From contig JACVTC010000031.1 of NCBI GenBank assembly GCA_016946835.1, positions 563,501-627,500 on the forward strand: 64,000 nt of DNA, read 5' to 3'. Origin of the DNA: Neocallimastix lanati (nom. inval.) (taxonomy: Eukaryota; Neocallimastigomycota; Neocallimastigomycetes; Neocallimastigales; Neocallimastigaceae). The position numbers and the translations under genes were made by a program. The notes under the pieces are model-generated. The model was not told where the DNA came from and did no database searches. It worked only from the letters and a program-made list of their open reading frames with translations. Below are positions 17,188 to 48,073 of this stretch, one piece after another; position 1 is the stretch's first letter, and every line of letters begins with the position of its first letter.

Positions 17188-17838
17188 TGTCAAGGATTTG
17201 ATACAAATTAATTTATATTTAATACTACAAAAATAACAATTTAATTATAAATATAATTTGTACTCCTTAAATCCTTGTACCGTTCATAACCAAATTAATA
17301 TTGTATTACATATTAATTAATATTATCCCTTTTATACATTATTGAACCCCTAATATATTAATTGATTAATATTGTATTACATATTAATTAACATTATCCC
17401 TTTTTATATTAATTAATATAGTTGAATATTATTTATAAAAATTGTTTTTTATTAATTATATTATTTTATATATTTTTATTATCTTATATTGTATATGTAT
17501 TATTCTATTACTTTATATATTAAAATTATATTTTATATTGTTATCTTTAAATTAGTATTTATTAAAATATATTATTAAATATTTTATATTGTTTTTCAAA
17601 ATATAAAAGAACTAAAAAATATTCTTTTTTAAATCTTTGTAAGATTATTATTTACAAATAATCTGATAACTTTATAATAAAACATATTAAATAAAAATAT
17701 AGTTAATTAAAAGTTTAATAATAAAATAATATTTTATATTTGAATAAATCAATTTAAAAAAATAAAATAATATCAAAAGGTTATTAGATTAAAGGCTTCC
17801 AACCAAGTTTACCCTTTAATCTAAGTACCAACTTAACA
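17188..17838 (+). repeat. 5' LTR of P
   Basis: TGTCAAGG at the start and CTTAACA at the end. It contains the TATA box TATAAAAG at 17602-17609 and the presumed start region CTTTGTAAGATTATT (17635-17649). Confidence 0.95.
17602..17649 (+). promoter_or_regulatory. P promoter and presumed RNA 5' end
   Basis: TATAAAAG at 17602-17609. GTAAGATTATT at 17639-17649 lies 37 bases from the first T and is complementary to the sequence bordering the LTR at 17838-17848. The word CTTTGTAAG(A/G)TTAT recurs after a TATA box in P-like LTRs near 7540 and, on the minus strand, near 59080 and 63330. The transcription start is inferred. Confidence 0.6.
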
Positions 17839-17848
17839 ATAATCTTAC
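17838..17848 (+). other. Self-priming primer binding site of P
   Basis: AATAATCTTAC overlaps the last LTR base and is the exact complement of GTAAGATTATT at 17639-17649. No TGG follows the LTR, so a tRNA primer is unlikely. In Tf1-type elements the first bases of the mRNA fold back on a site directly after the LTR; this arrangement matches. Confidence 0.7.
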
Positions 17849-17872
17849 CGCTATTTTAGAAACTTCCTTGGA

Positions 17873-19096
17873 ATGCCTAAAATTGGCCTAAGACGCTCGG
17901 GAATGTATTCAGCTAGATCGGATGAAGAAATGGATATGAATAAAGAAGACTCAGTACAACAATTGCGATCCGAAGCCACCCAAGCTTGTACCACCTTAGC
18001 AGAAGGTGTTCAACAGTTAAGAAATGATACCTCACAAGCTTGTAATAGTATAGTTTCTGGGGTGAATGAAAACTTCGTTTCCAAAGAAGACTTACAAAAT
18101 TACCATCAAGAGGTAATGAAACAATTCGGAGCTTATGATAAAATGAATAATGAAATATTGGCCTCTTTAGAATCTTTGAAGAAGGCTACCCTCTATTTTA
18201 AGCATGAATTATGTAATAAAACTCAAGTAGAAAATACTTCTTCTGGTGCTACCTCGTCGATACCGTTGACATCTGGAAATCCTACGGTAAACCTCCATTC
18301 TGTTTTCGATGATAATATCTCAACTACTACAAGATATGACAATGATCATGATGTTATCATGCAATCTGCTTACCCTATTAATATTCCTCAAGTTCCAGAT
18401 CCAGGTTTGTTTTCAGGTGATATTTCTGAAACCGAACTTTTCTGTCAACTGTGTGGGGACACATTTAAAACCTATCCATGTAAGTCTTGGCCTGAAGATT
18501 CGAAAATCAACTTTGTGCAATCAAGATTAAGAGAAGCTGCTAGAAGTTGGTACCAAACAAAATATTCCAGTAGTCCTCCTGCTTCCCTAGAGGCTCTTCT
18601 TAATGAATTAAAAGAAGCTTTTCCTGATGTTGTCAGCAAAAAGTTAAAGAAAATTAATTTAATAAATCTTAAACATTCTCATGGTAATATTAAGGACTAT
18701 ATCGATTCTTTCCGTAAACTAACAGCTGATCTTGGTTGGCCTGAAGAACCATTAGTATTATTTTTCTATAATGGTCTTCATCCAAAATTTAAAGAAGAAA
18801 TTAATAAAATGGAGAAGTTTCCAGAGAAAATAGAAGAAATTACAACAAAGTGCATATTGTTTGAATCTTCTCAAGAAACTAAATTAAAGATAAATCAATT
18901 AACCAGCAATAAAAATTATAAGAGAAAGAACTCTCATTCTTATCCCAATAGTGAAAACAAGAATAAGAAGAATAACAATTATTACAATCATAGTAAAAAT
19001 AATAACTTCCATAATAATAAATCTAAGGTTAATTCCAGTTACAACAACCGAGAAAATTATGTTACCGAAGTCCAAAAAATTAACTCAAAAAACTAG
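17873..19096 (+). CDS. gag: Gag of element P
   Basis: 407-residue capsid precursor, starting at the first ATG after the primer site. The N-terminal third is hydrophilic, with two Gln/Ala-rich repeats (QLRSEATQACTTLAEGVQQL). A Ty3-type capsid domain (retrotransposon gag) covers about residues 170-320, with the landmarks DPGLFSGD, AARSWYQ, LINLKHSHGNIKDYIDSF and FYNGLHPKFKEEI. The C-terminus (about 330-407) is Lys/Asn-rich and basic, with no CCHC knuckle, so it probably binds RNA through charge. It ends at TAG 19094-19096, immediately after a slippery heptamer; pol follows in the -1 frame. Confidence 0.92.
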   Translation: MPKIGLRRSGMYSARSDEEMDMNKEDSVQQLRSEATQACTTLAEGVQQLRNDTSQACNSIVSGVNENFVSKEDLQNYHQEVMKQFGAYDKMNNEILASLESLKKATLYFKHELCNKTQVENTSSGATSSIPLTSGNPTVNLHSVFDDNISTTTRYDNDHDVIMQSAYPINIPQVPDPGLFSGDISETELFCQLCGDTFKTYPCKSWPEDSKINFVQSRLREAARSWYQTKYSSSPPASLEALLNELKEAFPDVVSKKLKKINLINLKHSHGNIKDYIDSFRKLTADLGWPEEPLVLFFYNGLHPKFKEEINKMEKFPEKIEEITTKCILFESSQETKLKINQLTSNKNYKRKNSHSYPNSENKNKKNNNYYNHSKNNNFHNNKSKVNSSYNNRENYVTEVQKINSKN

Positions 19097-19119
19097 ATAA
19101 TGGACTTCCCAAGAAGTCC
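19087..19119 (+). promoter_or_regulatory. -1 ribosomal frameshift signal of P
   Basis: Slippery A AAA AAC at 19087-19093, in the gag frame and directly before TAG. The 8-nt spacer TAGATAAT (19094-19101) is followed by a perfect 7-bp hairpin GGACTTC / GAAGTCC with loop CCAA (19102-19119). Pol is open in the -1 frame from here. Slippery type and spacing are the textbook arrangement. Confidence 0.85.
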
Positions 19120-22100
19120 TCTCCGATTAAAACTATTCAATATAATTATCCAACTTTAAACCCTCCTCTTCCTAATTCTTTCTTTTTGTTTAAATCATTT
19201 ATCCCAACAATAAACAAAAGGAACAAAAACATTAAATTACAAACCAAATCAATGTTAGATTGTGGTTCTTACTGCAATTTTATTTCTACCAATTTAATCT
19301 CTCGGTTAAATCTTGTACCTCAAAAACTTAATAATAAAATATATATAAAAGGTATTAGTGGTGATACAGATTCCATTAATGAATTTGTGTCTTTAAATTT
19401 TCAACTAAAAATCAAAATTAACAATACGTTTCATTTAATCAAATTTAAAGAAAAATTCCTTGTGTCAAAACATATTCCAGTGGATTTACTCCTTGGAAAT
19501 CAATTTATGAAAAACTATAAAATACATTTTAGTTATGATAATCATTATCTTTACTCTACTTTCAAAATCTCAAAATTTAAATCAAGAATTATAAAGAATT
19601 TTAAACAAAATGCGAATTCAATTAATTTTTATGACGGATTACCCTATAATTACAACTTTTTAATCTATTCTTTTCTTTCAAATAAGGTATCAGAGGATTC
19701 TGAAGAACCTGATATTGAGCGTATTCCTGAACAGTATAAAGACCTTGCAATAGTCTTCAGTAAAAAGGAAGCAGATAAGCTTCCTCCCCATCGTTTAACG
19801 GACTGTGAGATCAATCTTCAACCAGGTGCTACTTTACATTATGGACCAATCTACCCGCTTACATTGGAAGAATCAGAAGTTTTAAAAGATTACATAAAGG
19901 AAAACGAAAAGAAAGGATTTATTAGAGAATCTCACTCCCCAGCCGGCTATCCTGTTCTCTTTCAAAAAAAGAGTGATGGTTCTCTCCGACTCTGCGTTGA
20001 CTACAAACGTTTAAATGCGGTTACTATTAGAAATTCCTATCCTTTACCGCTCATCAACGACATTATTGAACGAGTCAAAGGAGCCAAGTACTTTACTAAA
20101 TTGGACTTGCGCTCCGCATATAATTTAATTCGTATAAAGGAAGGCGATGAATATAAAACAGCTTTCCGTACTAAGTATGGACATTACGAATATTTAGTAA
20201 TGCCATTTGGTCTTAAAAATGCACCTGCAATCTTCCAATCTTTTATTAACTCTGTCCTTCGTCCATTCTTAGAGAAATCGGTAATACTCTACCTAGATGA
20301 CATTCTAATTTATTCTAATTCATTAGATGATCATCATCAAACTGTACGTGAGGTTCTCAAAAAGCTTATTGACAATAATTTATATGCTAAACTTTCGAAA
20401 TGTGAATTCGATAAAGAGGAAGTCGAATTCCTTGGACATATCATTTCTGGTTCTGGTGTGTCCACTGATCCAAAGAAGATCAAATCAATCAAAGAATGGC
20501 CCATTCCAAAAAACGTAAAAGAGGTTCAAAGGTTTCTTGGTCTTTGCAATTACTATAGAAGATTCGTAAGGAATTTTGCTGCTATTGCTAAACCTTTGCA
20601 TGCTTTAACCAAGAAAGGAAGGAAGTTTGTTTGGTCTAAAGATTGTGATACCTCCTTCTCAATTCTCAAAAAACGTTTAACTTCTTCCCCTCTCCTCATG
20701 CATCCTGACTTAACAAAACCTTTTATTGTTGAGTGCGATGCTAGTAACTTTGCTATTGGAGCAGTTCTTTCCCAGTATGATAATGATAATAAGCTTCATC
20801 CTATTGCTTATTTTTCTCGTAGTCTTAACAATGCCGAAATAAACTATTCGATTACCGATAAGGAACTTTTATCAATTAAAGAAGCTTTCTCATCATGGCG
20901 TCACCTTTTGTTAGGTGCTAAATTCAAGATTAAAGTTTTTACTGACCATAGAAATCTTCTATATACCCTTGGAGGAAAGATAGGTAATCAACGTCAACAT
21001 CGTTGGCATCTATTCTTCCAAGAATACGACTTTGAACTTATCTATCGCCAAGGTAAAAAGAATGGCAAACCCGATTCGTTATCCAGAAGACCAGACTACC
21101 AAAAGGAAGATATAGAGGATAAACCTGAGTTTATCTTAGACAGTAAGAATATTGGTAAAATCCCATGTTTAATTAGTATAACTAACGATCTTCTCAATAA
21201 TATTAAAATAAACTTAAAGAATGATAAGGTTGCTGAGAATCTTCGTATATATTTTTCTGAAAATAATGTCTCTCAAGGTTTCCCTTATAAACCATTTCGC
21301 AAAATGAATAAGTTTAAATTAGAAAATGATTTAATATTATACAACAATCTTATTTACATACCAGATCAACTTCGTTTAGATATTTTAACTCGTTATCATG
21401 AGAAACCTGCTGCGGGTCATTTTGGTGTCAAAAGAACTTTGGAGTTGATCTCAAGAAACTTTTGGTGGCCCAAGATGGAAGATGATGTTAAGAATTTTGT
21501 AAAGTCGTGTGAAACATGTATGAGAAACAAAAAATCTAGGCACCGAAAATTTGGGTTACTTCAACCGCTTGACGTTCCAGAAAGACCTTGGAAATCAATC
21601 GAAATTGATTTCTTATGTGGTCTTCCACCATCCAAAGGTAATACGGTGATTATGGTTGTAGTTGATAGATTTTCAAAAATGATACACCTTATTCCCTTCA
21701 AAGATATTCCAAATTCCGTACAAACAGCCAAAGCTTTTATCAATAATATCTATAAGCTCCATGGTCTACCCTATGATATTATTACGGATAGAGGTTCACA
21801 GTTTACGAGTGAACTTTGGCAAGAATTTCTATTCTTATTAAATATTAAATCGAAAATAGCTACTACTGACCACCATGAAACCGTAGGTCAAGTTGAACGA
21901 TGCAATTCTTTCATCGAACAATACCTTCGCTGTTTCTCAAGATCTTTCTATCATGATGATTGGGTTGATTTTCTTCCACTTGCTGAATTTGCTTATAACA
22001 ACTCAATTCACCCTTCCACTAACGAAACTCCCTTTTTTATCAACTATGGATTTCATCCTTACATGGATGAATATACACTACTCCCTACTTGTAACATTAA

Positions 22101-22656
22101 TCATAAAATGGTTCAAAAAGTTTATGAAAGTTTTAATCATGTTAAAGAAGTTCTTCTCCGATCCCAAGAGCTATATAAACGTTCTGCTGATAGAAAAAGA
22201 ATTACCGCTCCTTCTTACAACATTGACGATTTGGTGTGGATTCAAGCTCCTCCTTCGTTAAATATAGAATCATGCTCAAAACTAGCTCCATGCAAATTTG
22301 GTCCATACAAAGTAACCAATGTTTTACATAATAATAATTATGAAATTGAACTTAAAAATTCACCCTTTCCTAAGCATCATAATGTTTTCCACGTCTCTGA
22401 ACTCGAACCATTCACACCAGTGCCTGAAAAGTTTAGAAAACGATATAAAGATCCTGAGTCTATTAAGGATATTATTGAAATTGCGGGTTTTAGAACTAAC
22501 TATAAGAAGAAACAATACGAATATAAAATCCGTTATAAATATCGTTCCTCCTATAATTGGGTATCTTCTTCTGAAGTTGAAGATAATCCAAGAAACCAAA
22601 ATATTTTTATTAAATACATTAATAATAATAGGAAACCAGTCTCGATCTCATATAGT

Positions 22657-22662
<6 letters not shown>
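19090..22662 (+). CDS. pol: Pol of element P (protease, RT, RNase H, integrase, chromodomain)
   Basis: Translated by -1 frameshift from gag; the frame has no ATG near its start, and the long open part is 19186-22662 (1158 codons). Counting from 19186: protease near 25-110 with active site LDCGSYCNFIS (DCG where DSG/DTG is usual) and LLLGNQF; RT about 215-400 with LCVDYKRLNA, MPFGL and YLDD at about 368; RNase H about 510-635 (ECDASNFAIGAVL, TDHRNLLY); integrase finger about 735-780 (H, H, CETC); integrase core about 803-910, with catalytic residues in EIDFLCGL, TDRGSQF and VGQVERCN. The usual DGQTE is changed, but Glu is kept. A chromodomain at about 1085-1145 (YEYKIRYKYRSSYNWVSSSEV region) probably steers integration to chromatin. 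Apparently intact. Confidence 0.95.
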
Positions 22663-22894: not shown

Positions 22895-23546
22895 TTGTCA
22901 AGGATTTGATACAAATTAATTTATATTTAATACTACAAAAATAACAATTTAATTATAAATATAATTTGTACTCCTTAAATCCTTGTACCGTTCATAACCA
23001 AATTAATATTGTATTACATATTAATTAATATTATCCCTTTTATACATTATTGAACCCCTAATATATTAATTGATTAATATTGTATTACATATTAATTAAC
23101 ATTATCCCTTTTTATATTAATTAATATAGTTGAATATTATTTATAAAAATTGTTTTTTATTAATTATATTATTTTATATATTTTTATTATCTTATATTAT
23201 ATATGTATTATTCTATTACTTTATATATTAAAATTATATTTTATATTGTTATCTTTAAATTAGTATTTATTAAAATATATTATTAAATATTTTATATTGT
23301 TTTTCAAAATATAAATGAACTAAAAAATATTCTTTTTTAAATCTTTGTAAGATTATTATTTACAAATAATCTGATAACTTTATAATAAAACATATTAAAT
23401 AAAAATATAGTTAATTAAAAGTTTAATAATAAAATAATATTTTATATTTGAATAAATCAATTTAAAAAAATAAAATAATATCAAAAGGTTATTAGATTAA
23501 AGGCTTCCAACCAAGTTTACCCTTTAATCTAAGTACCAACTTAACA
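22895..23546 (+). repeat. 3' LTR of P
   Basis: 652 bp, TGTCAAGG to CTTAACA, near-identical to the 5' LTR. It is followed by the target duplication CTTCG. Confidence 0.95.
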
Positions 23547-24792
23547 CTTCGTATTCACTTTCTGACAAAAGTTTACATAAACTGTTTAAGGTCGGATGAA
23601 TAAATAAACAATGATCGATTTGAGTTTTAAAGTTTAGTAACATATCATAAAAAGAGTCTTCTTTCTCAATAATTCTAAAGTCCGCATTAAATTCATAATT
23701 ATTAATTTTTACTGGTAATCGAACAATAATTCCTTCCGAGTATTCTTCATCTTGTGTTGCTAGTTGGATTCTTCCACGACTTTTTCCAACTGTTTCATAT
23801 TCACCAGGTAATTTATCAAAATACTGCTTAGTAACGATGCTTAGGTTACTACAAGAATCAATTAAAAGTTTTCCTAGTACTCCGTCAACACTTGCATCAA
23901 CCATTGCTAAGTCTTCTTCGGCTACTTCATTACTTTTACTTATGTAGCTATGATCATAGTTATTTACTAATAAAGTTCGTGCTATTACATTGTCTACAGT
24001 TCCAATTATTTTATACTTTTCTAACTTTAAACCTTGAGTTAATTGTGAACGAATTTTGGGACATGCATTCAAGAGTTGACCTATCGTAATATTGGATTTA
24101 AGATTATTTAAATCATCCATAATATTGTAAGGTTCTTTATTATTCATCATTTTGATATTCCTTTTTACTAATTGAGTATTTCCATTATTAGTTTCTTTAG
24201 TTTTTGTTGAAATTAATTTTTCCAAAGTATTAGTTTTATTTTGTTGATTATCTTTATTCATTTCTAGATTTTCTATTTCATTATCGATTACAAGTATATC
24301 TTCAGATTCAACTTTTTCCTTTCCTTTTGATGAATAATTGTTGTTTTCTTCTTTACTTTCTCTTACTCTTGTCATATTTCTTAATTCCTTTTCTTTTTGT
24401 TTTTCTTTGTTAATATTTGGTTGAGTTAAAATTGAAGGAAGTATTTGATTTTTATAAACTTTATTTGGTTTATTATGTAGCTCATTTTCTTTCCTCTTTC
24501 TTAAAGCAGGAATTGCGAAAGGACGTGGATTATCTTTTAAACTTTTATGTACTTTCTTGGAATTATTTTCTTCTTTTTCGCTGTTATTATCATTCATTTT
24601 TCTTTTTATAGCATTTATAATGATATCATCCTCACTTTCAGTTGTGTCACTAAAATCAGATTCTTCAGATTCTTCATTAAAGGAATTATTATCAATTGGA
24701 GTATTCTTAGTAAAAGTATTATTTTGTAAATTATTTAATGAAGCTATTGTTTTGTCATTGGGAGTGCTTCTGCTCCCATTTAGAAGTTTAAA
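23547..24792 (-). pseudogene. pol: N-terminal pol of element W (linker and protease), cut by P
   Basis: Continuous -1 frame from the slippery site at 24786-24792 down to the P insertion at 23547. It has a charged Lys/Glu/Asn-rich linker, then the retropepsin-like domain with active site LLIDSCSNLSIV at about 23850 (DSC instead of DSG), LPGEYETVGKSRGRIQ, and FIHPTLNSLC near the break. It is close to the corresponding part of Y pol. The P insertion falls just after SESEYE; sequence resumes at 17187 in frame. The segment itself has no nonsense codon. Confidence 0.88.
24760..24792 (-). promoter_or_regulatory. -1 ribosomal frameshift signal of W
   Basis: Slippery T TTA AAC (24792-24786) in the gag frame. 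The 8-nt spacer TTCTAAAT (24785-24778) contains the gag stop TAA. A hairpin GGGAG (24777-24773) / CTCCC (24764-24760) with an 8-nt loop follows. Pol is in the -1 frame. Confidence 0.85.
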
Positions 24793-25691
24793 GACTTTTT
24801 GGAATATATTTCTTTTTTATTTTTTTCCATAATCTTATTTAATTGAGGGCAATAGTATGAGTAATGACCTTCTTCCTTACAGAAGAAGCAAGTTTTAACA
24901 GATAAATTTCTCATTTTCTGGGTTGATTCTTCGATAATATCTTGAGGTTTCGGTTTATTATTTGTTTGATTTGTTTGGAAAGTTTCGTTTCTTCTTTTAA
25001 GATAAAGTCTTGAAGTAGTACTGTTTTGATTATTTTGATTATGTTGGGAATTATTAACATTATAGGTATTAATATTATTGTTCCTTACAGAAAGTCTATC
25101 TACTTTCTCGGCAATTTTGAAAGCTTTCTCCATACTTATATCATCTTTAAGGGATAATTTCTTCCAGGCTTCATAATTATTTTGAATAAAATCAATATAA
25201 TCTAGTACACCAATGCGCTTTCTTCTCTTTTTATCAAGTTTAGTGTACAAAGTTCTATATCTTACATTAAAGTCTTTAATCTTTTCGTTTCTTTTAATTC
25301 GCATTGCACGAAGTTCTTTAAGAAGTAAATTTTGGTCTTCTTTAATACCGTAAAAATTTTCAAGACTTGAAATAATTTTTCCAAGAGAAGGAAATTTAAT
25401 ATCATCATCAACATTTTCTTCTTCATCATCATCTTCTTCTTCATCTGATGAATCATCACTTTCATCATCACTATCTTCTCCCAAATCTTCAATAACGCGT
25501 TGTACTTCACCAGAGCTGGTAAGTAAACAAGCATTAAATATTGTTTCTGGATCTGTAATACCTTGTATCTTGATCCAAAGTTTTAATTCAGTAGCCCAGG
25601 ATTTAATATCTAAATTGTCCTTGCTAATTTTCACAATATCTCTTAATTCTTTTTTCAATTCTTTAAAGCTCAAAGTTGTTTCCTTGGACAT
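24780..25691 (-). CDS. gag: Gag of element W
   Basis: 303 residues from the ATG at 25691 (MSKETTLSFKELKKELRD), chosen because the homologous Y Gag starts at the matching position; an upstream in-frame Met at 25757 is less likely. The capsid-like region contains an acidic Asp/Glu/Ser tract at about residues 75-105 and the conserved block RALRIKRNEKIKDFN-like (here RAMRIKRNEKIKDF). A CCHC zinc knuckle CFFCKEEGHYSYYC lies at about 266-280, expected to bind element RNA. The frame is intact although pol is broken, so the protein could still be made and might package RNA in trans. Stop TAA at 24780-24782 lies in the frameshift spacer. Confidence 0.88.
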   Translation of the reverse strand: MSKETTLSFKELKKELRDIVKISKDNLDIKSWATELKLWIKIQGITDPETIFNACLLTSSGEVQRVIEDLGEDSDDESDDSSDEEEDDDEEENVDDDIKFPSLGKIISSLENFYGIKEDQNLLLKELRAMRIKRNEKIKDFNVRYRTLYTKLDKKRRKRIGVLDYIDFIQNNYEAWKKLSLKDDISMEKAFKIAEKVDRLSVRNNNINTYNVNNSQHNQNNQNSTTSRLYLKRRNETFQTNQTNNKPKPQDIIEESTQKMRNLSVKTCFFCKEEGHYSYYCPQLNKIMEKNKKEIYSKKSLNF

Positions 25692-27010
25692 TTTGTTTAA
25701 ATATTTCTTGTTGTATATTAATGAGGTGATTAAATAAGAATAAATTTGGAAATACAACTTTAAAAATATAATTTAATAGGTAATTTAATATCGAATCAAT
25801 TTTTAAAACAATATATTTTAGTAACTTTTGAAAATAATAATTTTATTTGCTTTCTTTAGTAGATATAAGCTCGAAATCCTTATCGACAACTTAGTAGAAA
25901 TTATAAAGCACGAGGTTCTTTTCGACAACTTAATAGAATAATTTTAAGTTCGAAATCTTTATCGACAACTTAATAGAATATTTTTCAAGCTCGAAATCTT
26001 TATCGACCACTTGAATTTTGTAATTTATTATATTTGTAGTAATAAATTTAGAAGCAAAGTTTTATTTATTATTTTCACCTTTCAAAAAATTTTTCTTTTT
26101 AAAAGATAAATATTGTATTATTATAGCTAATAAAATTATTAATTAATTATAATTATTAAATACAAAAAAATAATCTTTATTGTCGTACAATCTGATAGTA
26201 CACACTGTCTGACGTGCAGCTTACCTAATGGTGTCATGCCACGCGTGTGCCACGATTACTATATTCAATATAAAATATAGCAGTTCAGAGCCCACTAGCC
26301 CAATTACTATGTAGGATAAACTTAATCCGATAATCTATGTACGGAATAAAAATAAATTTTAAAAGTATTCAATAATATTTTTATTAACTAATAAAAATTA
26401 GCTAAAAACACAATATTTTCAAAGTAAATTAAGATTCTATTACAGAATTATATAACAAATAAAGTACCAGTAATAAAGAAAAAAAAATAAAAAAAATTTA
26501 AATGGCGAAGTTAGCCAAAGTCTGATACTTTATATAATAAAGTGCCTTATAACTAGCACAAAGAAAAATAAAAAAAATATAAAAAAAAATCTTACGCCTT
26601 CGGTGACGTAAGCTCCTTATTCGCCAGTGCTTGGAAAGTACCCGCACCTTCGTGTGTTGAAACGTTGAAGGCTGAACTATTATTACCGGGTCGGTAACCA
26701 AATACCTTCGTCTACTTTCCAATTAATTCCCAAAATAACTATTATCCAATAACTACTATGAATAATAGATATTTTGTTGTTTTCTGGAAATACACTGTAT
26801 ATGAGCTCTATCCGCTCCTTGTTATAATTTACAATCTTTTTTTTAGAATCTTAATTTTATTTATTTAAAAAAAAATTTTTTTTATATATATATATCAAAC
26901 AAGCGCCATAGGTTAATCAAAGGATTAACGACTTACTTGTTTATCAATATAAAATAAAAAAAAAAAAATTAAAAAAAATCTATGTTATTTACTATTATTT
27001 CTATTTAATT
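25692..27010 (-). other. Leader of element W with repeats and GC-richer blocks
   Basis: No credible gene. An imperfect repeat of about 45 bp occurs four times at about 25867-26016, each copy with CGAAATC and TTATCGACAACTTAATAGAA. Less AT-rich blocks lie at about 26185-26350 and 26590-26850. The second has short hairpins, including CTTACG/CGTAAG around a CTTCGG loop (about 26591-26612) and TTACC/GGTAA (about 26682-26697). The layout resembles the structured leader of Y, but I see no clear sequence match. A 74-codon frame at 26498-26722 overlaps it and is not convincing. Confidence 0.6.
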
Positions 27011-30160: not shown

Positions 30161-33100
30161 TTACTCTAAAGTTGTCTTATATTTTTGAACATTTTTAAGA
30201 TGAACAGGTCTTTCAAGAACTAAACCTGTATCTGGGTCCGCTAGTTTTACCGCATTAAAATGTTTTCCAATAACCTTATAAGGGCCTACAAAATATGGAT
30301 CTAATTTAAATCTACTGAAATTTTGTACTTTTACCAGATCATTTTTCCTAATAGTATTTTGTTTATTATTTCTAAAGTTTTCATTCCTTTCTTCTTCCCA
30401 TTTCTTATTAGTTTTTTTCATATTTTGGCTTGCTTCTAAAACCCATTTATAATGATTGCAAAATTTTTCCAATAATTTTTCTTCATTTGTGGCTTGTACA
30501 TTAGATGTTGGTAATGTTGTGGCTAATTCGAATGGTTGTTGGTCAATTCTTCCATATACCAACTCAAAACTGGAATGTTTGGTGGCTGTATTCCTGGAAG
30601 TTCTTAGAGCCCATAAAGCAGATGGTAACACTATATCCCAATCTTTTTCCTTTTGACCTAAAAGGCGTAAATATTTCCCAATTTCCCTATTTCTATTTTC
30701 CGTCATACCATTAGTTTCTGGATGATATGTAGTTGAAAAATGAATGTATACATCATATAAGTCCAAAAATATTCTTGTTAATTCTGAATTAAATTGTGGA
30801 CCGTTATCTGTAGTTACTACTTGTGGCGTGCCATGTCTTGCAAACACTCTACTTAAGAAATATATTACATCTTTTGAAGTGACAGTAGCCAAAGGCTCTG
30901 CTTCTACCCACTTAGTGAAATAATCAACTATCACTATGATATATTGATTATTTCTTTCAGTAATAGGTAATGGGCCAATAATGTCCATGCCTAAATGTAT
31001 GAAAGGACCCTCGACTGGAGTGGCGTAGCGTTCTGTGGCGTCAACAGATTTATTATTTTTACATAATTGGCATTTAGAGCATAATTGAATGGTTACTTTA
31101 ACATCATTACTCATACCTTTCCAGTAGTAGTGTCTCTTTAATCGTTGATACGTCTTGTCAAAACCCTCATGACCAATCTTGTGGGCTTCCCAGATAAGCT
31201 TTATTCTTTCTTCATATTCTTCTACAATTCTTCGGTAAGTTCCATTATCTCTGAAATATTTCTTATTATCAATTTCAAATATTTTATCTTTGATAAATTT
31301 CTTTAAGAATTCAGTGTTTTCTTCATCATTTTCTTCTAAATTTAATGAATTTATTACTGTATCATCATCTATATTAATAATTGTATGAGATACTAAAGGA
31401 GTCACATGATCATTCAAAGAATCAAAAATTTTTTTATAATTTAATGTATTTAAATTTTTTATGTTTTGACATTTATTATGATAGTTCTCGACTTCATACC
31501 ACATTGTATATACTACATCTTTACGTGTCGGTTTGCTTCCAGAATGGATATTTAAACTTTCTAAGATATTACTAAAATCAAGGTTTGTATATTTTGGTTT
31601 ATTATTATCTAAAATATTCGATAAATTATTAATACAATTCATATCTGAAGCGCACGTTTCCTCCGTCAAGCCACTTGTAACATTATATATCATAGTGACT
31701 TTACTATTATTTTCTTCAATAATAGGAAGTAATCTTGAAAGAGAATCAGCCAAAGCATTCTTTTTCCCTGGTTCATATTTTACGATAACTTTTAACATGC
31801 TTAAATCAATGCACCAACGAGCGTGACGTGCATTGTTTGGTTCTTTATTATTAAATAAACCGACTAAAGGTTTGTGGTCGGTATATACGATAGTTTCATA
31901 AGGATTACCTTCAATATAAAATTTGAATTGCTTAACACAGTAATGAACAGCTGTACCTTCCAAATCTGTTATGCTATAGTTTCTCTCAGCTCTAGATAAT
32001 GAACGACTTACAAAGTGGATTGGACGTTCTAATTCACCAGCCACTTGTAGTAGAACGCCACCCAAACCTTTTTTTGATGCATCTGTTCTAATAAAGAATT
32101 GTTTAGTATAGTCTGGAAACATTAATATTGGGGCTTTAATTAAACACTCTTTCAATTTATTAAAACTAGTAGTTTCTTCTTTGCTAATATTAAAAGTTAT
32201 ACCTTTACGTAGTAATTTAGTAAGTGGTGCAGCAACTTGTGCAAATTGATTTATGAATTTACGATAGTAACCAATTGCACCTAAAAACGACTTAAATTCT
32301 GAAACATTATTAGGAATTACCCAATTTTTTATTGCCATAACCTTTTTATCATCGGTTTTAAGTCCTTCCTTGGATATCACGTGACCTAACACATGTACCT
32401 CCTCCCTCATAAATTGACATTTTTCAATGTTAATTTTTAAATTAAATTTTTCGAAAATATCCAGAACTAAAATTAAATGTTTCACGTGTTCTTCAGGAGT
32501 TTTAGAAAAAATTAATACATCATCTATAAAAACATATACACAAACGCCTATTAAGTCAAATAAAATTTTATTCATTTCCCTTTGGAACGTAGCAGGAGCG
32601 TTACACAGACCAAATGGCATTACCTTGAATACAAAATTGCCATATTTAGTGGTGAAACAGGTTTTATCCACACTGTCATCATCCAATAAAATTTGATGAT
32701 AACCAGAAAATAGATCCAAAGTAGAAAAAATTTCCGCTCCTCCAAGGTTATCAAATATTTCGTCAATATAAGGCAGGGAATAAGAATCCGGAACTGTAAT
32801 ATCATTAAGTTTTCTATAGTCCACACAAAAACGCCAATCATTAGAATTGTTTTTGGGGACTAATACTACTGGAAATGACCATTCAGAAGATGAAGGTATT
32901 ATTATTCTTTTATTAATCATGTCCTTAATATGGTCTTTAATAATAGCTGATTTGACATTATTAGTACGATAATATCGTAGCTTAATAGGGGCAACACCCT
33001 CCTTAATTTTAATATGATGGGGTCCCAAGCTAGAAGGGGTCAAATCATTAGTTGAGGTAGCAATAATAACTATATGGTCTTCTAAAATAGATGTGATTAA

Positions 33101-34311
33101 ATCTACATATTTTCCATCCACGTGATCTAACATACGGTCGCTATGAATAAATTCACTTGGGGTCATCTTATCCTTAACTTTTGTGGCGTAGCAGTGTAAA
33201 TTATTATTTTCATTTACATCATCAATTTTTTTTACAAAACAAGCAATCTTTTCTGAGTCCAAATCAGAAATAGTATCACACACGTATTGACAAGAAGAGT
33301 CTTCATTAATGAAAAATAAAGCTTTTAATGGAGGTATAACAAAGAAGTTGTATTGGGCTTGCGTATAGTAACCAACTAAAATATCAAAATAGGCATCATC
33401 GTTTTCTATAATTCTAAAGGCGGTTTCGAATTCCAAAAATCCTATTTTTACGGGTAAGAATACTAATTGACCTTGAGAGGGTTCTCCTGTAGAGAGAGCT
33501 TGTAATATTCTACCTCTACTGATACCGGCTGAAATATATTCTCCAGGTAGAGAATTAAAGAATCTGGAGGAAACAATATTAAGGTTACTACCCGAGTCTA
33601 CAAGTAGTCGACACGTGACATCATCCACCGTGGCTGGAACAATAGCAATATCATCTTTCCTTACTTCCCTACTTTTACTAATATAATCATGGTCAACATT
33701 ACTAACCATAGTCATTTGAACATCTAAGTTATTAAGGGCACTTACAATATTGGTATTCTTTTCTAATTTTAGCCCCTTAATTAGGTCAGCCCTATATCTA
33801 GGACTACCATTTACCAATTGTGATAAAGATATATTGCATTTTAAGTTAGCAATATCCTTAATAATATCATAAGGTTCCACATTATTCATTAGACGTAAAT
33901 TGCGTGGACATTTCTTATTGACATTGGAACCTTTATTACTTTGGTTATTGGTATTGTTATTCGTACTATCTATTATCATATTTGGATTATTAAAATTATT
34001 AATATTATTATTGTTAGAGTAACTGTTTTGTGGCGCATTACTGGTAGACAAATTTGTATCCCTATCAGGTGATAAATTAATATTTTCGGTATTTAATAAA
34101 TTTGTACTACTAAAATTATTATTGTTAACATTGTTGATATAATTGTGACTACTATTATTAATATTGTCGTTATCATTATACTTGTTACTATTATTGTTAC
34201 TACTTATAATATCATTATTATTATTACTATTATAAGAATTATTATTAATATCATTATCATTATAAATATTATAATTATTATTATTATTTTTATTATTATT
34301 AATATTATTAA

Positions 34312-34360
<49 letters not shown>

Positions 34361-34705
34361 ATTATTATTATTATTGTTCTGAATATTTGTAATATTATTT
34401 TGTGTTTTATTTAATGATTCTTTCTTCTTTAATTTATTTAATTGTGATTTAGGAATAATTAAATTCCTTAAAGATATATTATCCTCTACATTAGTATTTT
34501 GGGTAATATTGTCTCTTGATGTTTCCTCAACATCATGAGATGAATTACCTCGTAAATTGTATTTCTTTTTATTATTATTATTCTCCTGAGAATTAGACTT
34601 CCTCTTTGCCGCAGCGATAAATAGCTTATTTGGTTTCTCAGGAGTGTAATAAGCGGCGGTTACTTTATTTTCGGGAGTCCGCAAACTCCCTTTATTTAGT
34701 TTTTT
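30161..34705 (-). CDS. pol: Pol of element V (Asn-rich linker, protease, RT, RNase H, integrase)
   Basis: Made by -1 frameshift from gag. The conventional frame is 34684-30161, 1507 codons counted from a TTG, with no ATG near its start. Residues about 70-265 are Asn-rich low complexity. Protease active site LLVDSGSNLNIV at about 362 (canonical DSG). RT about 570-760 with FCVDYRKLND, MPFGL and FIDD at about 723. RNase H about 863-980 (RTDASKKGLGGVLL, TDHKPLVGLF, ADSLSRL). Integrase finger about 1170-1215 (GHEGFDKTY, CSKCQLC) and core D, D, E in GMDIIGPL (about 1236), TTDNGPQF and MTENRNRE (about 1328). The C-terminus is a GPY/F-type module (FVGPYKVIGKHF), without a chromodomain. No stop or frameshift; likely active. 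Confidence 0.95.
34673..34705 (-). promoter_or_regulatory. -1 ribosomal frameshift signal of V
   Basis: Slippery A AAA AAC (34705-34699) directly before the gag stop TAA. Spacer TAAATAAA (34698-34691), then a perfect 6-bp hairpin GGGAGT (34690-34685) / ACTCCC (34678-34673) with loop TTGCGG. Pol is open in the -1 frame through this region. Confidence 0.9.
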
Positions 34706-35643
34706 TCTTCAAGATTATCTAATTTTTCTAGGAGAGCATTTAATCTCTTCAGTTTGGGACAATCGTATTTCAAGTGTACCTCCTGTTCACAAATGTAACA
34801 AGTCTTTATCCTTAAATTCTTCATTTTATTGGTTAGGTCTTCCATGGTGTCATTTTCTTTGGGAGACTTTCCCTTTACTTGTGGAGAAAGAGTTTTAGGT
34901 TTAATTACTATCCTATTTCTATTGTCTCCACCTTCTTGATATAAGGATCTAAAATTATTATTCTTCCTTTTATTTGTTTCATGATAGATTTCATCATAGA
35001 GTTCAGCTTTTTCATAAGCCTCCTCCAATGATGAACAACAGGAAGAATGAACTCCTGACCAAACCACAGTTCTTGGTTTCAGAGTTCCCTCGTAGTCATA
35101 TATAGAAATATATTTCTTACTTTCTTCATTTAGTTTCTTATATATTTCTTTAAATCTCTTGTTAAACTCGACTACTGTTTCATTTCTTTCAATACTCATG
35201 TTTTTAATCTCGGATAATAGCTGACTTTGTTTCTTCTCGTGTAACCATTCAGTGAGAAGAAAACTTTCTAACCCCTCCATGGAGAGATTATCAGGATTTT
35301 GTGTAACATATTCGTCAATATATTCCGGAATGTCTCCTGCGGAGGCTAATTTCATACAAAGGACTACATCATTCATATCTGTTTCTTCAAACAATTTCAT
35401 CCAGGAAGTAATTTGCTTAATCCAGGACTTTACGTTTTTATTACCAGCACCTAACTTCTGGATAGCGTTTAACATTAACATTTTATCCTTTGAATCAAAT
35501 GTCATTTTGGACCTAACTATTGTACTTGAATTGTCAGAGTTAAAGGGAGAATTATTAACACTACTATCTTCAAGGCTTGCGTTTGAATGGCTAGAACTAC
35601 TAGATGATGAATAACTTTTCTTATGAATAAAGAAATTTTCCAT
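34696..35643 (-). CDS. gag: Gag of element V
   Basis: 315 residues. A Ser-rich N-terminus (about 10-45) precedes a helical capsid-like region with SIERNETVVEFNKRFKEIY, equivalent to the IKRNE block of the W and Y Gags. A zinc knuckle CYICEQEVHLKYDC at about 279-292 keeps the CX2CX4HX4C spacing, but the usual Gly before His is Val. The start ATG at 35643 is the first in frame; MTFDSKDK further in is an alternative. Ends KN-stop at the slippery site. Intact. Confidence 0.9.
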   Translation of the reverse strand: MENFFIHKKSYSSSSSSSHSNASLEDSSVNNSPFNSDNSSTIVRSKMTFDSKDKMLMLNAIQKLGAGNKNVKSWIKQITSWMKLFEETDMNDVVLCMKLASAGDIPEYIDEYVTQNPDNLSMEGLESFLLTEWLHEKKQSQLLSEIKNMSIERNETVVEFNKRFKEIYKKLNEESKKYISIYDYEGTLKPRTVVWSGVHSSCCSSLEEAYEKAELYDEIYHETNKRKNNNFRSLYQEGGDNRNRIVIKPKTLSPQVKGKSPKENDTMEDLTNKMKNLRIKTCYICEQEVHLKYDCPKLKRLNALLEKLDNLEEKN

Positions 35644-36437
35644 ATATTAGATGTAACAATATATAAAGCAATATATATTGTTATATTAAATATCTTTTAA
35701 TAAAATTTTTTTAATGAATAAAACGTGTTAAAAATAATAAATATAAATATATTGAATTATAAAATTAATTACAATTCAATATAATATAAGAGTAAATAAA
35801 TAACAATAACTATTATAAATATATTGAATTATATTAGATATTATATCAATATGACTCAATATTTGTTATTTGAAAATAAATTAAATTTAAAATTGTAAAT
35901 TATATACTTTCAACAAAAATAAAATATAAATTCATATATAGTTAAATATAATAAAATGAATTATTAAAATTATAATATATATGAATATAATAATATTAAA
36001 ATCACTATCAACTATAAAATAAAATATATTATAATATATTATTAAATATAATTATTAGATATAATAAAATAATTTACTATATAAAATAATATATTGAAAT
36101 AATATATATAAAATTTAAAATAATATATAGAAATAATATATGGAAAAAAAATTTTTTTTTTTTTTTTTTTTTGTATAAGTTTGACCAAAATTTCTATATT
36201 AATAACTCTTCGTAATACTAATTTAAAATATTTTCAATCTTCCTTAATTCTATAATTAAAAGTTCTACATCCACACTCTTCTTTAACTTTTAATTATAAA
36301 TTAAATCACCTTTTTAGATTGAATTAATTCAAATAAAGGATTCTTTAAGTTATTGTAAATAGAAATTTATATATAAAATAAAATAAATTTTGTAAAAATT
36401 AATATACTTCCTCCCTGAACCGATATCTCCACCAATT
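35644..36437 (-). other. AT-rich leader of V with primer binding site (36420-36434)
   Basis: No gene and no GC-rich block; a T run at 36149-36171. The plus strand at 36420-36434 reads CCGATATCTCCACCA, so the minus strand begins TGGTGGAGATATCGG, three bases inside the 5' LTR. This primer sequence is shared with Y. Confidence 0.75.
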
Positions 36438-42662: not shown

Positions 42663-42703
42663 TGATGCTCCCTCTAAAACTCAAGCTACATCGAAGCTGA
42701 GTT
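42663..42703 (-). other. Polypurine tract and 3' hairpin of Y
   Basis: The minus strand reads AGAGGGAGCATCA against the LTR. Just upstream, overlapping the pol end, is a hairpin AACTC-A-AGCT (42678-42687) with AGCT-GAGTT (42695-42703), with one bulged A. Confidence 0.55.
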
Positions 42704-45700
42704 ATACTTGACTATATTCTTCAAATGAACATTCCCATTCATTTGAATTCCAGAATTTGGATCAGCCAAGGTAACCGTATTAAATTGTTTTTTTATAACT
42801 TTAAGAGGACCAACAAAATAAGGTTCTAGTTTAGTTCTTGAAAAATTTCTAACTAGAACTAAATCACCTTCCCTAATTCTTTTTCCCTCATTCAAACTAT
42901 TCTTTTCCTCTCTTCTAGCAGCCCAATACTTATTTGCATTTTTAACATTTTCGGCTGCTTCTAAAGTCCATCGGTAATGATTTATAAATTTTTCTAACAA
43001 CACTTCATCCGATGACTTATTAATATCCTTGGTAGGTCTAGCAGCAATATCAAAAGGCTGCTGATCCTCCCTACCATAAACCAACTCAAAACTTGAATGT
43101 TTTGTTACCTTATTTTTGGTAGTTCTAAGAGCCCATAAGGCGGATGGTAAAACTTCATCCCAATCCTTATTCTTAGAACCCAACAACCTCAATAACTTGC
43201 CGATCTCTTTATTACGGTTTTCCGTAAGTCCATTACTTTCAGGATGATATGTGGAAATAAACTTCACATATACATCATAGAGATCTAAAAATATTTTCGT
43301 CATGTCCGAGGTGAACTGAACACCATTGTCAGTTGTTATTACCTGTGGAACACCATGACGAGCAAACACATTAATTAAGAACTTAATCACATCCTGTGAT
43401 GTTATATTTTCCGTGGGTTCTGCTTCAACCCATTTGGTGAAGTAATCCACCACAACCATAATGTATTGATTATTATTCTTCGTTTTAATCAAAGGTCCAA
43501 TAATATCTAAACCCGAATGTATAAAAGGACCTTCTACTTTAGTTGGAATATTTTCTGTAGGTTCTGGATATGGTTGTGACCTATTCAACTGACACTTGTC
43601 ACAACTTTGCACCACTCTTTTAATATCCATCACCATATTATTCCAATAAAAACTTTTACGAAGCCTTTGATAAGTCTTATAATATCCCTCATGACCTATC
43701 TTATGGGCTTCTAAAATAAGTTTTACTCTTTCCGTTTGATCCGTAATTAATTTACGATAGTCATTACCATCAACAAAATAATCTTCACCATCTATCGTAA
43801 CAAATTTTTCATTTATAAAGTCTTTAATAGTTTTAGAAAGCAACTCTTCTTCTTCCTTTGAAGTTAACTTAGTTGCCAATACCACGGAATCATCTCTTTT
43901 CTTCATCCTAGATAATGCATCGGCTAACACATTTTTCTTACCCATTTGATATTGAATTTCAACACCAAGGGTACTAACAGTTAAGCACCACCTTGCTTGC
44001 CTAGCATTATTAGGTTCCTTATTTTTAAAGAAACTGATTAAAGGTTTATGATCTGTTATTACTACTGTTTTATTAGGATTTCCTAATATATAAGATTTCA
44101 ACTTAGTAATACAATAAATTAATGCAGCTCCTTCCAAGTCAGTAATGCCATAATTTTTCTCGGCTTTACTTAAACTTCTACTTATATAATGAACTGGATG
44201 TTCCTTTTTGGTTTCTAAATCTTCTTGGAGTAATACTCCTCCAATACCTTCATAGGAAGCATCCGTTCTAATTATAAACCTTTGATTAAAACTTGGATAT
44301 TTTAAAATTGGTGCATTTATTAACTTTTCTTTTAACAGATCAAAACTTTGTTGATGTTCATTATTCCATTTATATTTAACATTCCTTCTTAATAATTTAC
44401 ATAAAGGAGCAGAGATTTGAGCATATTTATCAATAAAGTTTCTATAATATCCTACTGCTCCAAGAAAAGATCGTAATTCATGAACATCAACAGGTGCTAC
44501 CCACTCCTTGATAGCCTTAATTTTGCTATCCTGGGGACTTAAACCTTTCACTGATGCCTTATGACCTAAGACTTCTACTTCAGTCTGCATAAAGGCACAT
44601 TTTTCAATGTTAATTTTTAATTTGTGTTGGCGAAATACTTCCAACACTTGCCTAATGTGGCATATATGTTCTTCTATACTCTTAGAGTATATTAAAATAT
44701 CATCTATAAAGTTAAAAACAAACTTTCCTATAAATGGGAAAAGAATCCTATTCATTTCCTTTTGAAATGTAACTGGGGCTCCGGTTAAACCAAAAGACAT
44801 AACCTTGAATTGATAGTTACCAAATTTTGTGGTGAAGGTGGTAATTTCTACACTTTCCTCATCCATCAAAATTTGATGATAACCAGAGTAAAGATCCATT
44901 GTTGTAAAAATCTGTGCCCCATCTAAACTATCAAATATCTCATCAATGTAAGGTAATGAATAAGAATCTTTAACTGTTAAATCATTAACCTTACGATAAT
45001 CAATACATAATCGCCATTTACCGTTCTTCTTCGGTACTAACACTATTGGCGATGACCATTCGGAACAAGAAGGTTCAATTAATTTCTTATTAATTAATTT
45101 AATTAATTCCTCCTTAAGTATATCCGACTTAAATTTAACTAATCTATAGCACCTTTGCTTAACTGGTTTCGCACCAGGAATTAAATTAATCTTATGTGGA
45201 GGAAGATCAGAAGGTGTTAATTCTTCTGAAGAAGTAGCAACTATTTCTAAGTTCTCCTCCAGAATTTTAATTATTTCATCTTTATATTTTTCGTTTAAAG
45301 TATTTAGGAAAATTTCATGATGAATATATTGCTTTGGGGATAATCCTTCAATTTTCTTTAAATCATTCTTTTTGGAATCCTCATCCAAAGCCTTAATCAT
45401 ACACAACAACTTTTCTTCATCTTCATAATCATTATTAATAGGTGCAATAACGTCAATTACTCCCTCAGGAGTAATTTGACACAAACTATATAAAATGGGG
45501 TGGATAAACAAATTATAATCAATTTGGGTTTTTAAGTTAATTAGAATATCGTAAAAAGGATCCTCCTTTTCTACTATTCTACAATTAACCATTAATACAA
45601 GATTATTAATCTTTACTGGCACCCGAATGATATAACCTTCCGAGTAATCATCATTCTTAGTTGCCAACCTAATTCTGCCACGACTAATATCAATAGGTTC

Positions 45701-46753
45701 ATATTCGGACGGAAGCTTATCTAAAAATTGTTGAGTAATTATACTTAAATTACTACATGAATCAATTAAAGCCTTCCCCGAAACACCTTCAACTGTAACA
45801 TCAACCATGGCAATATCCTCTTCACATGGTTCGTTACCTTTACTTTTATAAATGTGGTCTATGTTATTAACGACCACAGTCGTGGCTGACACATTATCCA
45901 ACACCCCAGAGATATTATATTGGTCCCTATCCAATTTAATACCCTGTGACACCTTATATCTTAATTTTGGAGCAGCATCCAATAACTGTCCAAAAGTAAT
46001 ATTGCAATGGGCAGAATTTAAATCTTTAAGAATATCATATTCTTCTTCCCCCGATTGCATCTTAATTTTCCTAGATACCCTAGAACTTTTAGTTTCTTTT
46101 TGAGTATCTTTATCTTTACTAATTAACACCTTTGTTAAATCAATTACTTTATTATTCTCCTTCACAATACTTTTATTATTATCATTAGTTTCTTTCATTA
46201 AATTTTTATTCTTTCTTTTATCATTATTTACATTATTTATAATAACTTCATCATTCACTAATGAATTATTATTAATATTATCATTACTATTATCATTACT
46301 ATTATCATTACTATGATTATTACTATAATTAGTATTACTATTACTAGCTCTTTCATTATCACGAATTTGTCTTTCAATCTCTTTTTCTTTTTCAATTCGT
46401 GGTTGAGCTAGAATAGATGGTTTAATTTGTTTAACAATTTTATTACTTATATTATTTTCTTTTATTTCTCGTTCTTTCTGTTTCCGTAATGCAGGAGTTA
46501 TTATAGGTTTAGGATTCTCTTTCAACGACTTATGAATCCTTTTCTCCGCACTACCTTCATCATTATTAACATCATAAATTTTACGTTTAGATGCTCCTAC
46601 TAAATAATCAACTTTCTTTTTATTAACCACCCTTTTATTAGCAGGAATTTCTTCAATATTAGAAAGACGAGAATTTTTAATTTCTTTTTGATATTTAATT
46701 GAAGCTGCTTTATTAAGTATGGGAGAGCTTCTTATCCCATTACTCAATTTAAA
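42686..46753 (-). CDS. pol: Pol of element Y (protease, RT, RNase H, integrase)
   Basis: Made by -1 frameshift from gag; 1353 codons from a TTG at 46747, open to 42686. Charged, Asn-rich linker about 1-230; protease active site LIDSCSNLSII at about 328 (DSC in place of DSG); RT about 525-715 with LCIDYRKVND and FIDD at about 680; RNase H about 825-940 (RTDASYEGIGGVLL, TDHKPLISFF, ADALSRM); integrase finger about 1015-1052 (GHEGYYKTY, CDKCQL) and core residues in GLDIIGPL (1078), TTDNGVQF (1139) and LTENRNKE (1175); GPF-type C-terminus, no chromodomain. The usual MPFGL of RT reads MSFGL here (Pro in W, V and P), which could weaken activity. Otherwise intact. Confidence 0.95.
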   Translation of the reverse strand, partial: FKLSNGIRSSPILNKAASIKYQKEIKNSRLSNIEEIPANKRVVNKKKVDYLVGASKRKIYDVNNDEGSAEKRIHKSLKENPKPIITPALRKQKEREIKENNISNKIVKQIKPSILAQPRIEKEKEIERQIRDNERASNSNTNYSNNHSNDNSNDNSNDNINNNSLVNDEVIINNVNNDKRKNKNLMKETNDNNKSIVKENNKVIDLTKVLISKDKDTQKETKSSRVSRKIKMQSGEEEYDILKDLNSAHCNITFGQLLDAAPKLRYKVSQGIKLDRDQYNISGVLDNVSATTVVVNNIDHIYKSKGNEPCEEDIAMVDVTVEGVSGKALIDSCSNLSIITQQFLDKLPSEYEPIDISRGRIRLATKNDDYSEGYIIRVPVKINNLVLMVNCRIVEKEDPFYDILINLKTQIDYNLFIHPILYSLCQITPEGVIDVIAPINNDYEDEEKLLCMIKALDEDSKKNDLKKIEGLSPKQYIHHEIFLNTLNEKYKDEIIKILEENLEIVATSSEELTPSDLPPHKINLIPGAKPVKQRCYRLVKFKSDILKEELIKLINKKLIEPSCSEWSSPIVLVPKKNGKWRLCIDYRKVNDLTVKDSYSLPYIDEIFDSLDGAQIFTTMDLYSGYHQILMDEESVEITTFTTKFGNYQFKVMSFGLTGAPVTFQKEMNRILFPFIGKFVFNFIDDILIYSKSIEEHICHIRQVLEVFRQHKLKINIEKCAFMQTEVEVLGHKASVKGLSPQDSKIKAIKEWVAPVDVHELRSFLGAVGYYRNFIDKYAQISAPLCKLLRRNVKYKWNNEHQQSFDLLKEKLINAPILKYPSFNQRFIIRTDASYEGIGGVLLQEDLETKKEHPVHYISRSLSKAEKNYGITDLEGAALIYCITKLKSYILGNPNKTVVITDHKPLISFFKNKEPNNARQARWCLTVSTLGVEIQYQMGKKNVLADALSRMKKRDDSVVLATKLTSKEEEELLSKTIKDFINEKFVTIDGEDYFVDGNDYRKLITDQTERVKLILEAHKIGHEGYYKTYQRLRKSFYWNNMVMDIKRVVQSCDKCQLNRSQPYPEPTENIPTKVEGPFIHSGLDIIGPLIKTKNNNQYIMVVVDYFTKWVEAEPTENITSQDVIKFLINVFARHGVPQVITTDNGVQFTSDMTKIFLDLYDVYVKFISTYHPESNGLTENRNKEIGKLLRLLGSKNKDWDEVLPSALWALRTTKNKVTKHSSFELVYGREDQQPFDIAARPTKDINKSSDEVLLEKFINHYRWTLEAAENVKNANKYWAARREEKNSLNEGKRIREGDLVLVRNFSRTKLEPYFVGPLKVIKKQFNTVTLADPNSGIQMNGNVHLKNIVKYNSASM
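46721..46753 (-). promoter_or_regulatory. -1 ribosomal frameshift signal of Y
   Basis: Slippery T TTA AAT (46753-46747) directly before TGA. Spacer TGAGTAAT (46746-46739), then GGGA (46738-46735) / TCCC (46724-46721) with a 10-nt loop that can form a further AG/CT pairing. The hairpin is weaker than in V or P, but position and spacing are the same. Confidence 0.8.
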
Positions 46754-47427: not shown

Positions 47428-47473
<46 letters not shown>

Positions 47474-47703: not shown

Positions 47704-48073
47704 TTTAAAAAAAAAACACACTTTTAAAAAAATAAAATAAAAAAAAAATTGTTTTATTAATTATTTAATTGCTATATTTTTATTTATTTATTTATTTATT
47801 TACAATTAAAATTATATATTTAAGTAATTTATATCTCTAGTGAGACGTTTCCGGCTAGTGTATATTTAATTTTGCTATATACACCCGTACTCCCCCTCCT
47901 GGACACTAGAATAAATATAAATTAATAAACTAGCTGGAGTGTTCACTATTCTTTCAAGCTAATAACCCCTTTCGTTTATCTTTACTTAAATAAAAAAAAA
48001 ATATATACAATTATTTACAAAAAAAAAAATTTATTAATATAGCAATTAAAAATATTTAAAAACACAAAAATTA

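Follow-up and report, generated by a model that had tools for sequence, protein, structure and literature searches.

A probable programmed -1 frameshift module between gag and pol of Ty3/Gypsy-type retrotransposons in the genome of Neocallimastix lanati

A 64,000-nt stretch of the genome of the anaerobic fungus Neocallimastix lanati (contig JACVTC010000031.1, positions 563,501 to 627,500; here called the window) contains five long terminal repeat (LTR) retrotransposons, P on the plus strand and V, W, Y and Z all on the minus strand. In each of them pol lies in the -1 frame and overlaps the gag frame, and this raises the question of how a ribosome engaged on gag could go on to translate pol. 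The answer proposed here is that a compact module at the gag–pol junction of these Ty3/Gypsy-type elements very probably serves as a programmed -1 ribosomal frameshift signal, as its anatomy and its conservation across the genome suggest.

The module at five gag–pol junctions

By both reading and script, all five elements were found to carry a slippery heptamer of the X XXY YYZ type at the end of gag, followed after 8 nt by an 18-nt hairpin, with 33 nt from the start of the heptamer to the end of the hairpin in every case. In W the gag stop is the second codon of the spacer, in the other four the first, and the gag and pol frames, counted from stop to stop, overlap by 37 nt in W and by 13 nt in P, V, Y and Z. 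The module of P spans 19087..19119 (+). Its heptamer, which in the gag frame reads A AAA AAC, lies at 19087..19093 (reading and script), its spacer TAGATAAT at 19094..19101 opens with the gag stop TAG, and its hairpin GGACTTC-CCAA-GAAGTCC at 19102..19119 consists of 7 bp closed by a CCAA tetraloop, with a fold of -9.9 kcal/mol. The four minus-strand modules, each supported by reading, script and folding, are those of V (34673..34705; AAAAAAC, spacer TAAATAAA, hairpin GGGAGT-TTGCGG-ACTCCC), W (24760..24792; TTTAAAC, spacer TTCTAAAT, hairpin GGGAG-CAGAAGCA-CTCCC), Y (46721..46753; TTTAAAT, spacer TGAGTAAT, hairpin GGGA-TAAGAAGCTC-TCCC) and Z (53594..53626; TTTAAAA, spacer TAGATTAT, hairpin GGGAG-AAGGCCAA-CTTCC). 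The original prediction had described these frames, heptamers, hairpins and stops, with the same 8-nt spacing and a first-codon stop in four of the five, and its description was reproduced throughout.

When the 41 nt following each heptamer were folded, the best fold contained the expected hairpin in all five elements, with z-scores of -2.9 (P), -2.7 (V), -3.1 (W) and -2.5 (Y), but of -0.6 in Z. In the best fold of Y the spacer additionally pairs with downstream bases, and in those of W, Y and Z a U-A pair extends the stem and shortens the spacer to 7 nt.

Frames, heptamers, spacing and stops are thus direct observations, and together the heptamer, the overlapping -1 frame and a structure at 5–9 nt make up the anatomy of a programmed -1 signal. 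Under the proposed mechanism, a ribosome translating gag would reach the X XXY YYZ heptamer with the 3′ RNA fold placed at the mRNA entry channel. In a minority of ribosomes both tRNAs would re-pair one base back, and reading would go on into pol to yield Gag-Pol; the remaining ribosomes would terminate within one or two codons and yield Gag. The stimulator would be a short GC-rich hairpin in the P lineage, while in the V/W/Y lineage it would combine a first stem of 4–6 bp with a second of 4–7 bp, in which the hairpin loop would pair with a site 8–15 nt downstream. That slippage occurs, how efficient it is, and which fold is present inside the ribosome are matters that we infer from these sequences. 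Frameshifting would account jointly for the frame, the heptamer, the spacing, the stop and the fold, whereas splicing, reinitiation, readthrough and polymerase slippage would each leave several of them unexplained.

One such alternative is suggested by the spacer itself, which ends in ATGG in P, W, Y and Z, as though ribosomes might reinitiate there after the gag stop. The spacer ATG, however, is in the gag frame, where readthrough of the stop would likewise continue, and the pol of every window element is in -1. Neither reinitiation nor readthrough has any need of a heptamer, and both together are extremely improbable.

Recurrence and conservation across the genome

The 199-Mb genome (762 contigs) was searched for related elements, and extra families were found by means of V pol, Z gag, P pol, RNase H and DNA patterns; sequences from elsewhere in the genome carry labels such as C610, and the fetched stretches are numbered from L001. 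Altogether 158 stretches were fetched, of which 107 were obtained without the motif as bait (L001-L107), 32 were picked by the motif and 19 were reverse transcriptase (RT) pieces for a tree. The module occurs in 85 of the 107 bait-free stretches, and its stem covaries, as described below. It also occurs in 31 of the 32 motif-picked stretches, as expected of such a sample, and in 116 of the 158 overall, with 40 distinct module sequences among them. The gag stop occupies the first spacer codon in 86 modules and the second in 29, or 115 of 116 in all; by reading, L134 has no gag stop within its spacer.

The regular position of this stop also bears on the idea that gag and pol are joined by splicing. 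A gene model of N. lanati, P0054, is annotated from gag-like into pol-like sequence, apparently by way of a predicted intron around the frameshift site. Yet splicing would leave unexplained the in-frame heptamer, the 8-nt spacing, the stop in codon 1 or 2 of the spacer and the conserved stem, and it is very unlikely to be how these junctions work. Another means of bringing pol into frame would be slippage of RNA polymerase on runs of A, and runs of A6-A7 are indeed found in P, its relatives and V. However, 90 of the 116 modules have TTTAAA plus one base as their heptamer and lack a long run, and such slippage would have no use for a fold kept at constant distance downstream; it has next to no probability here.

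The genome as a whole contains 903 exact matches (440 + 463) to the pattern TTTAAAC N(1-20) GGGAG N(4-12) CTCCC, and the reversed control gave none. Of the first 100 matches listed, 99 (counted by eye) have exactly 8 + 8, or 33 nt. With the heptamer place opened to any six A/T the matches numbered 808 + 838, and among 100 listed, again by eye, 72 had TTTAAA and the other 28 were their opposite-strand readings. These matches are copies of related families, many of them of one family, and do not represent independent events. On contigs C287, C340, C330, C388 and C359, matches recur at constant periods of about 6912, 8945 and 5761 bases (the last from one interval only), which could mean either that whole elements are arrayed head to tail or that the assembly is at fault.

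For Y, 34 matches were scored and 30 fetched, including the window's own; selected by intact pol and 98–100% identical, they have the same 33 nt in 30 of 30 cases. The 42 module-less stretches include 14 starts of single open reading frames (ORFs; L032-L038, L041, L043-L047, L049), two members of a +1 family (L039, L040), one that is mostly N (L042), three that miss the junction (L065, L067, L102), one with altered spacing (L143), two in-frame gag–pol joins (L078, L079) and the 19 RT pieces (L108-L125, L146). Among the 19 junction regions sampled through RNase H, 14 were single gag–pol ORFs, two had the -1 module, two had the +1 arrangement and one was mostly N. The expectation that all families are expressed through the module therefore holds for the window and fails for the genome.

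The +1 family (L039, C11:584796-587196; L040, C754:730915-731515) has a gag-protease ORF followed by the RT frame in +1, with a 56-nt overlap that lies between protease and RT, and its RNase H frame measures 904 aa in seven listed matches. This arrangement reflects either a +1 shift or an indel that has spread.

Stem 1, the stem of the hairpin, was tested on 14 module sequences, with five pairs and 500 shuffles. It was paired in 98.6% of cells, compared with 81.5% after shuffling, and its covariation score of 0.495 compares with 0.178 for shuffled sequences and 0.192 for the best result when the stem was slid. Four of the five pairs show changes on both sides. P, P2 and C135 have GGACTTC/GAAGTCC where GGGAG/CTCCC is found elsewhere, and keep that stem though their tetraloop is CCAA, TTTT or AACA, while C479 has GAGAG/CTCTC. 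The longer stem of C287 and C357, GAACATCATA...TATGaATGTTC versus GAACATCAAC...GTTGaATGTTC, contains two compensated pairs, and the U-A pair at the stem foot of W, Y and Z corresponds to G-C in C13 and C112. A structure 5–9 nt 3′ of the heptamer thus shows compensated changes, from few independent events. The standard -1 anatomy that had been predicted is evidently conserved, both in the pairing of these 14 sequences and among the distinct modules of the 116 stretches.

Comparison with other species was made through gag C-termini only. Relatives of gag numbered four for V and 50 for Y. In 37 of the 50 the protein ends in LN, alone or followed by a single H, Q, Y, F or L, against 0.5 expected at random end positions; such an ending would result from T TTA AAC with a spacer of one codon. 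In all four V-gag relatives the ending is KN or KNY, which would correspond to A AAA AAC. Since these gag proteins are related, they would represent one conserved ending and not many events. In viral contigs no related element was found by Y pol, by a three-row pol alignment or by the module pattern, and none of the 25 module-pattern matches there was matched by V or P pol in tblastn.

Several of these results weigh against the frameshift reading or reduce the evidence for it. Within a family, the fetched copies hardly differ and are not independent. As many both-sided stem changes were seen in 10 of 500 shuffles, and for further pair types there was no excess, 132 of the 500 scoring as high. 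The two-sided changes come from few events, namely the P/P2/C135 lineage (three pairs) and C479 (one pair), so that raw counts overstate the number of compensated events. None of the eight Y-gag relatives labelled with an organism or a genome (two Piromyces, two Neocallimastix and four labelled Orpsp1, some of them labelled gene models or partial) has the LN(x) ending. Finally, two Z-like copies have gag and pol in one frame with no module in the fetched stretch. In these (L078, C39:500200-501000; L079, C268:1176050-1176800), with open frames of 2022 and 3732 aa, an Asn-rich gag shares its frame with the part of pol that is Asn-rich and encodes the protease.

Complementarity between the hairpin loop and downstream sequence

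A feature overlooked by the original prediction, and new here, is that hairpin loops of the V/W/Y lineage are complementary to a site 8–15 nt downstream of stem 1. The proposed second stem (stem 2) is GAAGC:GCTTC in W and C610, GAAGCT:AGCTTC in Y, GAACGTT:AACGTTC in C511 (7 bp) and TGTACT:AGTACA in C13 (6 bp), with 4 bp each in V (GCGG:CCGC), C112 (AGTG:CACT) and C479 (TTCG:CGAA). In the window, the proposed partners lie on the minus strand at 34656..34659 (CCGC of V; p 0.35 alone), 24740..24744 (GCTTC of W) and 46701..46706 (AGCTTC of Y).

In a permutation test in which downstream pieces were swapped among families, matched loops and downstream pieces did better than swapped ones, with p = 3e-5 for ten families and p = 4e-4 for seven non-redundant families, both sets including Z-lineage members. 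With Z left out and C4 added (seven families), p was 2e-4. The geometry comprises a stem 1 of 4–6 bp, a loop 1 of 0–3 nt, a stem 2 of 4–7 bp, up to 4 nt between, and a mostly A-rich loop 3 of 8–15 nt, and is that of an H-type pseudoknot. The stimulator of the V/W/Y lineage is thus most likely a compact H-type pseudoknot, as judged from this complementarity. Retroviral gag-pro pseudoknots, such as that of mouse mammary tumour virus (MMTV), likewise combine an A AAA AAC site, a spacer of about 7–8 nt, a stem 1 of 5–6 bp, a short loop 1 and an A-rich loop 3; MMTV differs in being a retrovirus, with two successive shifts and different sequences.

Predictions of the downstream partner from the loop had mixed outcomes. 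For loop TATGCAAT, found by motif in the genome listing, the predicted partner ATTGCATA (written down in the same step as the fetch) was matched by ATTGCAT and ATTGCA 12 nt downstream, giving 7 and 6 bp. Loop TAGAAGCA is accompanied by TGCTTC (6 bp) in L137 and L144 and, at C5:638025, by GCTTC where TGCTTC was predicted; as predicted, both AAGAAGCA sites have GCTTC or TGCTTC. For the loops TAAGCAAT and TACGCAAT the 5-bp core GCAAT:ATTGC lies exactly 12 nt downstream in eight of eight sites. For the Z-type loops AAGGAATA, AAGGGAAA and AAGGATGA, the full predicted complement was found in none of eight stretches (L126-L133) and a 5-bp part of it in one.

The competing explanation is that a plain stem-loop is the stimulator in every family, the loop–downstream complementarity being a coincidence or a by-product of coding, and a number of observations count in its favour and against a pseudoknot. 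The Z lineage (seven sequences) has no loop–downstream pairing (p = 0.75). The P-lineage loops are of 4 nt, and the tetraloop hairpins of P and C135 have no loop pairing 3′ of stem 1; stem 2 scoring in this lineage covered P, C135 and C287, and the best that C287 offers is 4 bp (p 0.58). Taken singly, stem 2 of V, C479 and C112 is not significant (p 0.23–0.52). Longer pairing predicted beyond the core of TAAGCAAT and TACGCAAT was found in none of the eight sites, and where the loop has changed to AGGAGGCA or AGGAAGAA (L138, L139), the predicted GCCTC and TCTTC are absent and GCTTC is kept. The GCTTC of W, Y and C610 also codes, as read from the sequence, for a shared Ala-Ser. Moreover, the pseudoknot was first seen by eye in the same sequences on which it was tested, so the tests are post hoc, and Z was excluded after it had failed. 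Nonetheless, swapping preserves the coding make-up of the downstream pieces and the matched set is still better (p = 4e-4), and C511 (7 bp), C13 (6 bp) and C4 (7 bp) pair unrelated sequences at about the same place. A plain stem-loop throughout is accordingly unlikely, if by no means negligible, and a pseudoknot remains the preferred stimulator for the V/W/Y lineage; for the Z lineage, it is the stem alone that is supported.

Two further recurrences were seen around these loops. In the Z-lineage loci L126-L133 and L080-L083, a loop AAGG and a downstream AAACC recur without pairing with each other. In L031 and L100, GACTCC some 40 nt downstream is a possible partner for the loop GGAGTC of C287 and C357, each strand being the same in the two.

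The elements and their relation to known systems

The P gag frame (stop to stop, 17843..19096, +; Pfam Retrotrans_gag) is followed by a -1 pol frame at 19084..22662 (+) with RT, RNase H and integrase. Its 5′ LTR (17188..17838, +) is 99.7% identical to its 3′ LTR (22896..23546, +), with the target duplication CTTCG. On the minus strand, gag lies at 34696..35646 in V, 24780..25772 in W and 46744..47760 in Y (with a zinc knuckle), and the corresponding -1 pol frames at 30161..34708 in V, 23524..24816 in W (the pol start, up to the P insertion) and 42686..46756 in Y; the two frames of Z occupy 53617..55185 and 51077..53629. The LTRs of V (29636-30138 and 36437-36939) are identical and those of Y (41647-42662 and 49209-50225) 99.7% identical. 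Target duplications beside the LTRs measure 5 bp in P, 4 bp in Y and 4 bp in V (the V edge shifted by one base), and with the near-identical LTRs they mark P, V and Y as recent insertions. In these three, on which the order of pol domains was assessed, RT and RNase H precede integrase, as is typical of Ty3/Gypsy. The protein of 22201-22662 in P contains an SH3_Tf2-1 domain and gave no chromodomain match at E 1 that would make P a chromovirus.

Within 13892-25772, P has apparently inserted into W pol. The W pol frame stops 22 nt into the P LTR, and from 16675 a W-like pol frame continues on that strand; 13892-16675 would be the remainder of W, the two parts presumably forming one element. The window also holds gag-like and LTR-like sequence of another Y-type copy (1-2889), whose junction lies outside it, and a tRNA-Val (CAC) at 56085-56159 (+).

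Shifts of this kind have precedents. According to PMC5009743, -1 gag–pol frameshifting is known in LTR retrotransposons, a 2003 survey having placed 28 of 51 animal elements in -1, and fungal elements use both shifts with less skew between +1 and -1. The elements described here share with those surveyed the -1 pol and a classical heptamer near the gag end; the survey counts are from animals, whereas here anaerobic-fungus families have a conserved structure at a fixed distance. PMC5009743 also describes H-type pseudoknots in the Ty3/Gypsy derivatives PEG10 and Ma3, which likewise pair a -1 heptamer with a pseudoknot stimulator; those are domesticated host genes with frameshifting shown experimentally. 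It covers yeast Ty3 too, a fungal element that similarly requires a gag/pol frameshift but in +1, at GCG_AGU_U; the 14-nt 3′ stimulator of that shift is believed to work without intra-mRNA pairing. The mycovirus review PMC10224137 describes fungal Metaviridae as having one ORF for gag and pol, in which they differ from the module-bearing elements here. A passage of PMC6875170 presents the signals of the Salpingoeca rosetta LTR families Sroscv4/5 as 6-bp motifs and mentions no structure. Among the matches listed for frameshifting and LTR elements in anaerobic fungi and for related subjects, two of these listings covering 20 of 240 and 20 of 53, titles and abstract openings describe no such signals, subscription journals being mostly outside coverage.

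The mechanism is therefore of a known kind, and what is distinctive is the number of natural variants in one genome. The window elements do not amount to five demonstrated independent cases, as V, W, Y and Z form one clade; these four may or may not share a single origin with P. It is tentatively suggested that one radiation of anaerobic-fungus retrotransposons kept its gauge of heptamer, 8 nt and, usually, an 18-nt hairpin while the stimulator changed among a tetraloop hairpin, a hairpin with an 8-nt loop and a compact pseudoknot, the ancestor of P and V/Z already using that gauge. If the suggestion is true, nature would have provided, on the scale of a genome, a series that reveals what the ribosome needs from the 3′ fold. 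There is debate over how a 3′ structure comes to promote -1 slippage, and individual viral signals, with mutants of them, have supplied much of the data. The 40 distinct natural modules of this one genome share spacing and heptamer class, differ in their folds, include naturally compensated pairs and could be measured side by side. The findings also suggest that annotating gag and pol as spliced genes should be avoided for these abundant elements.
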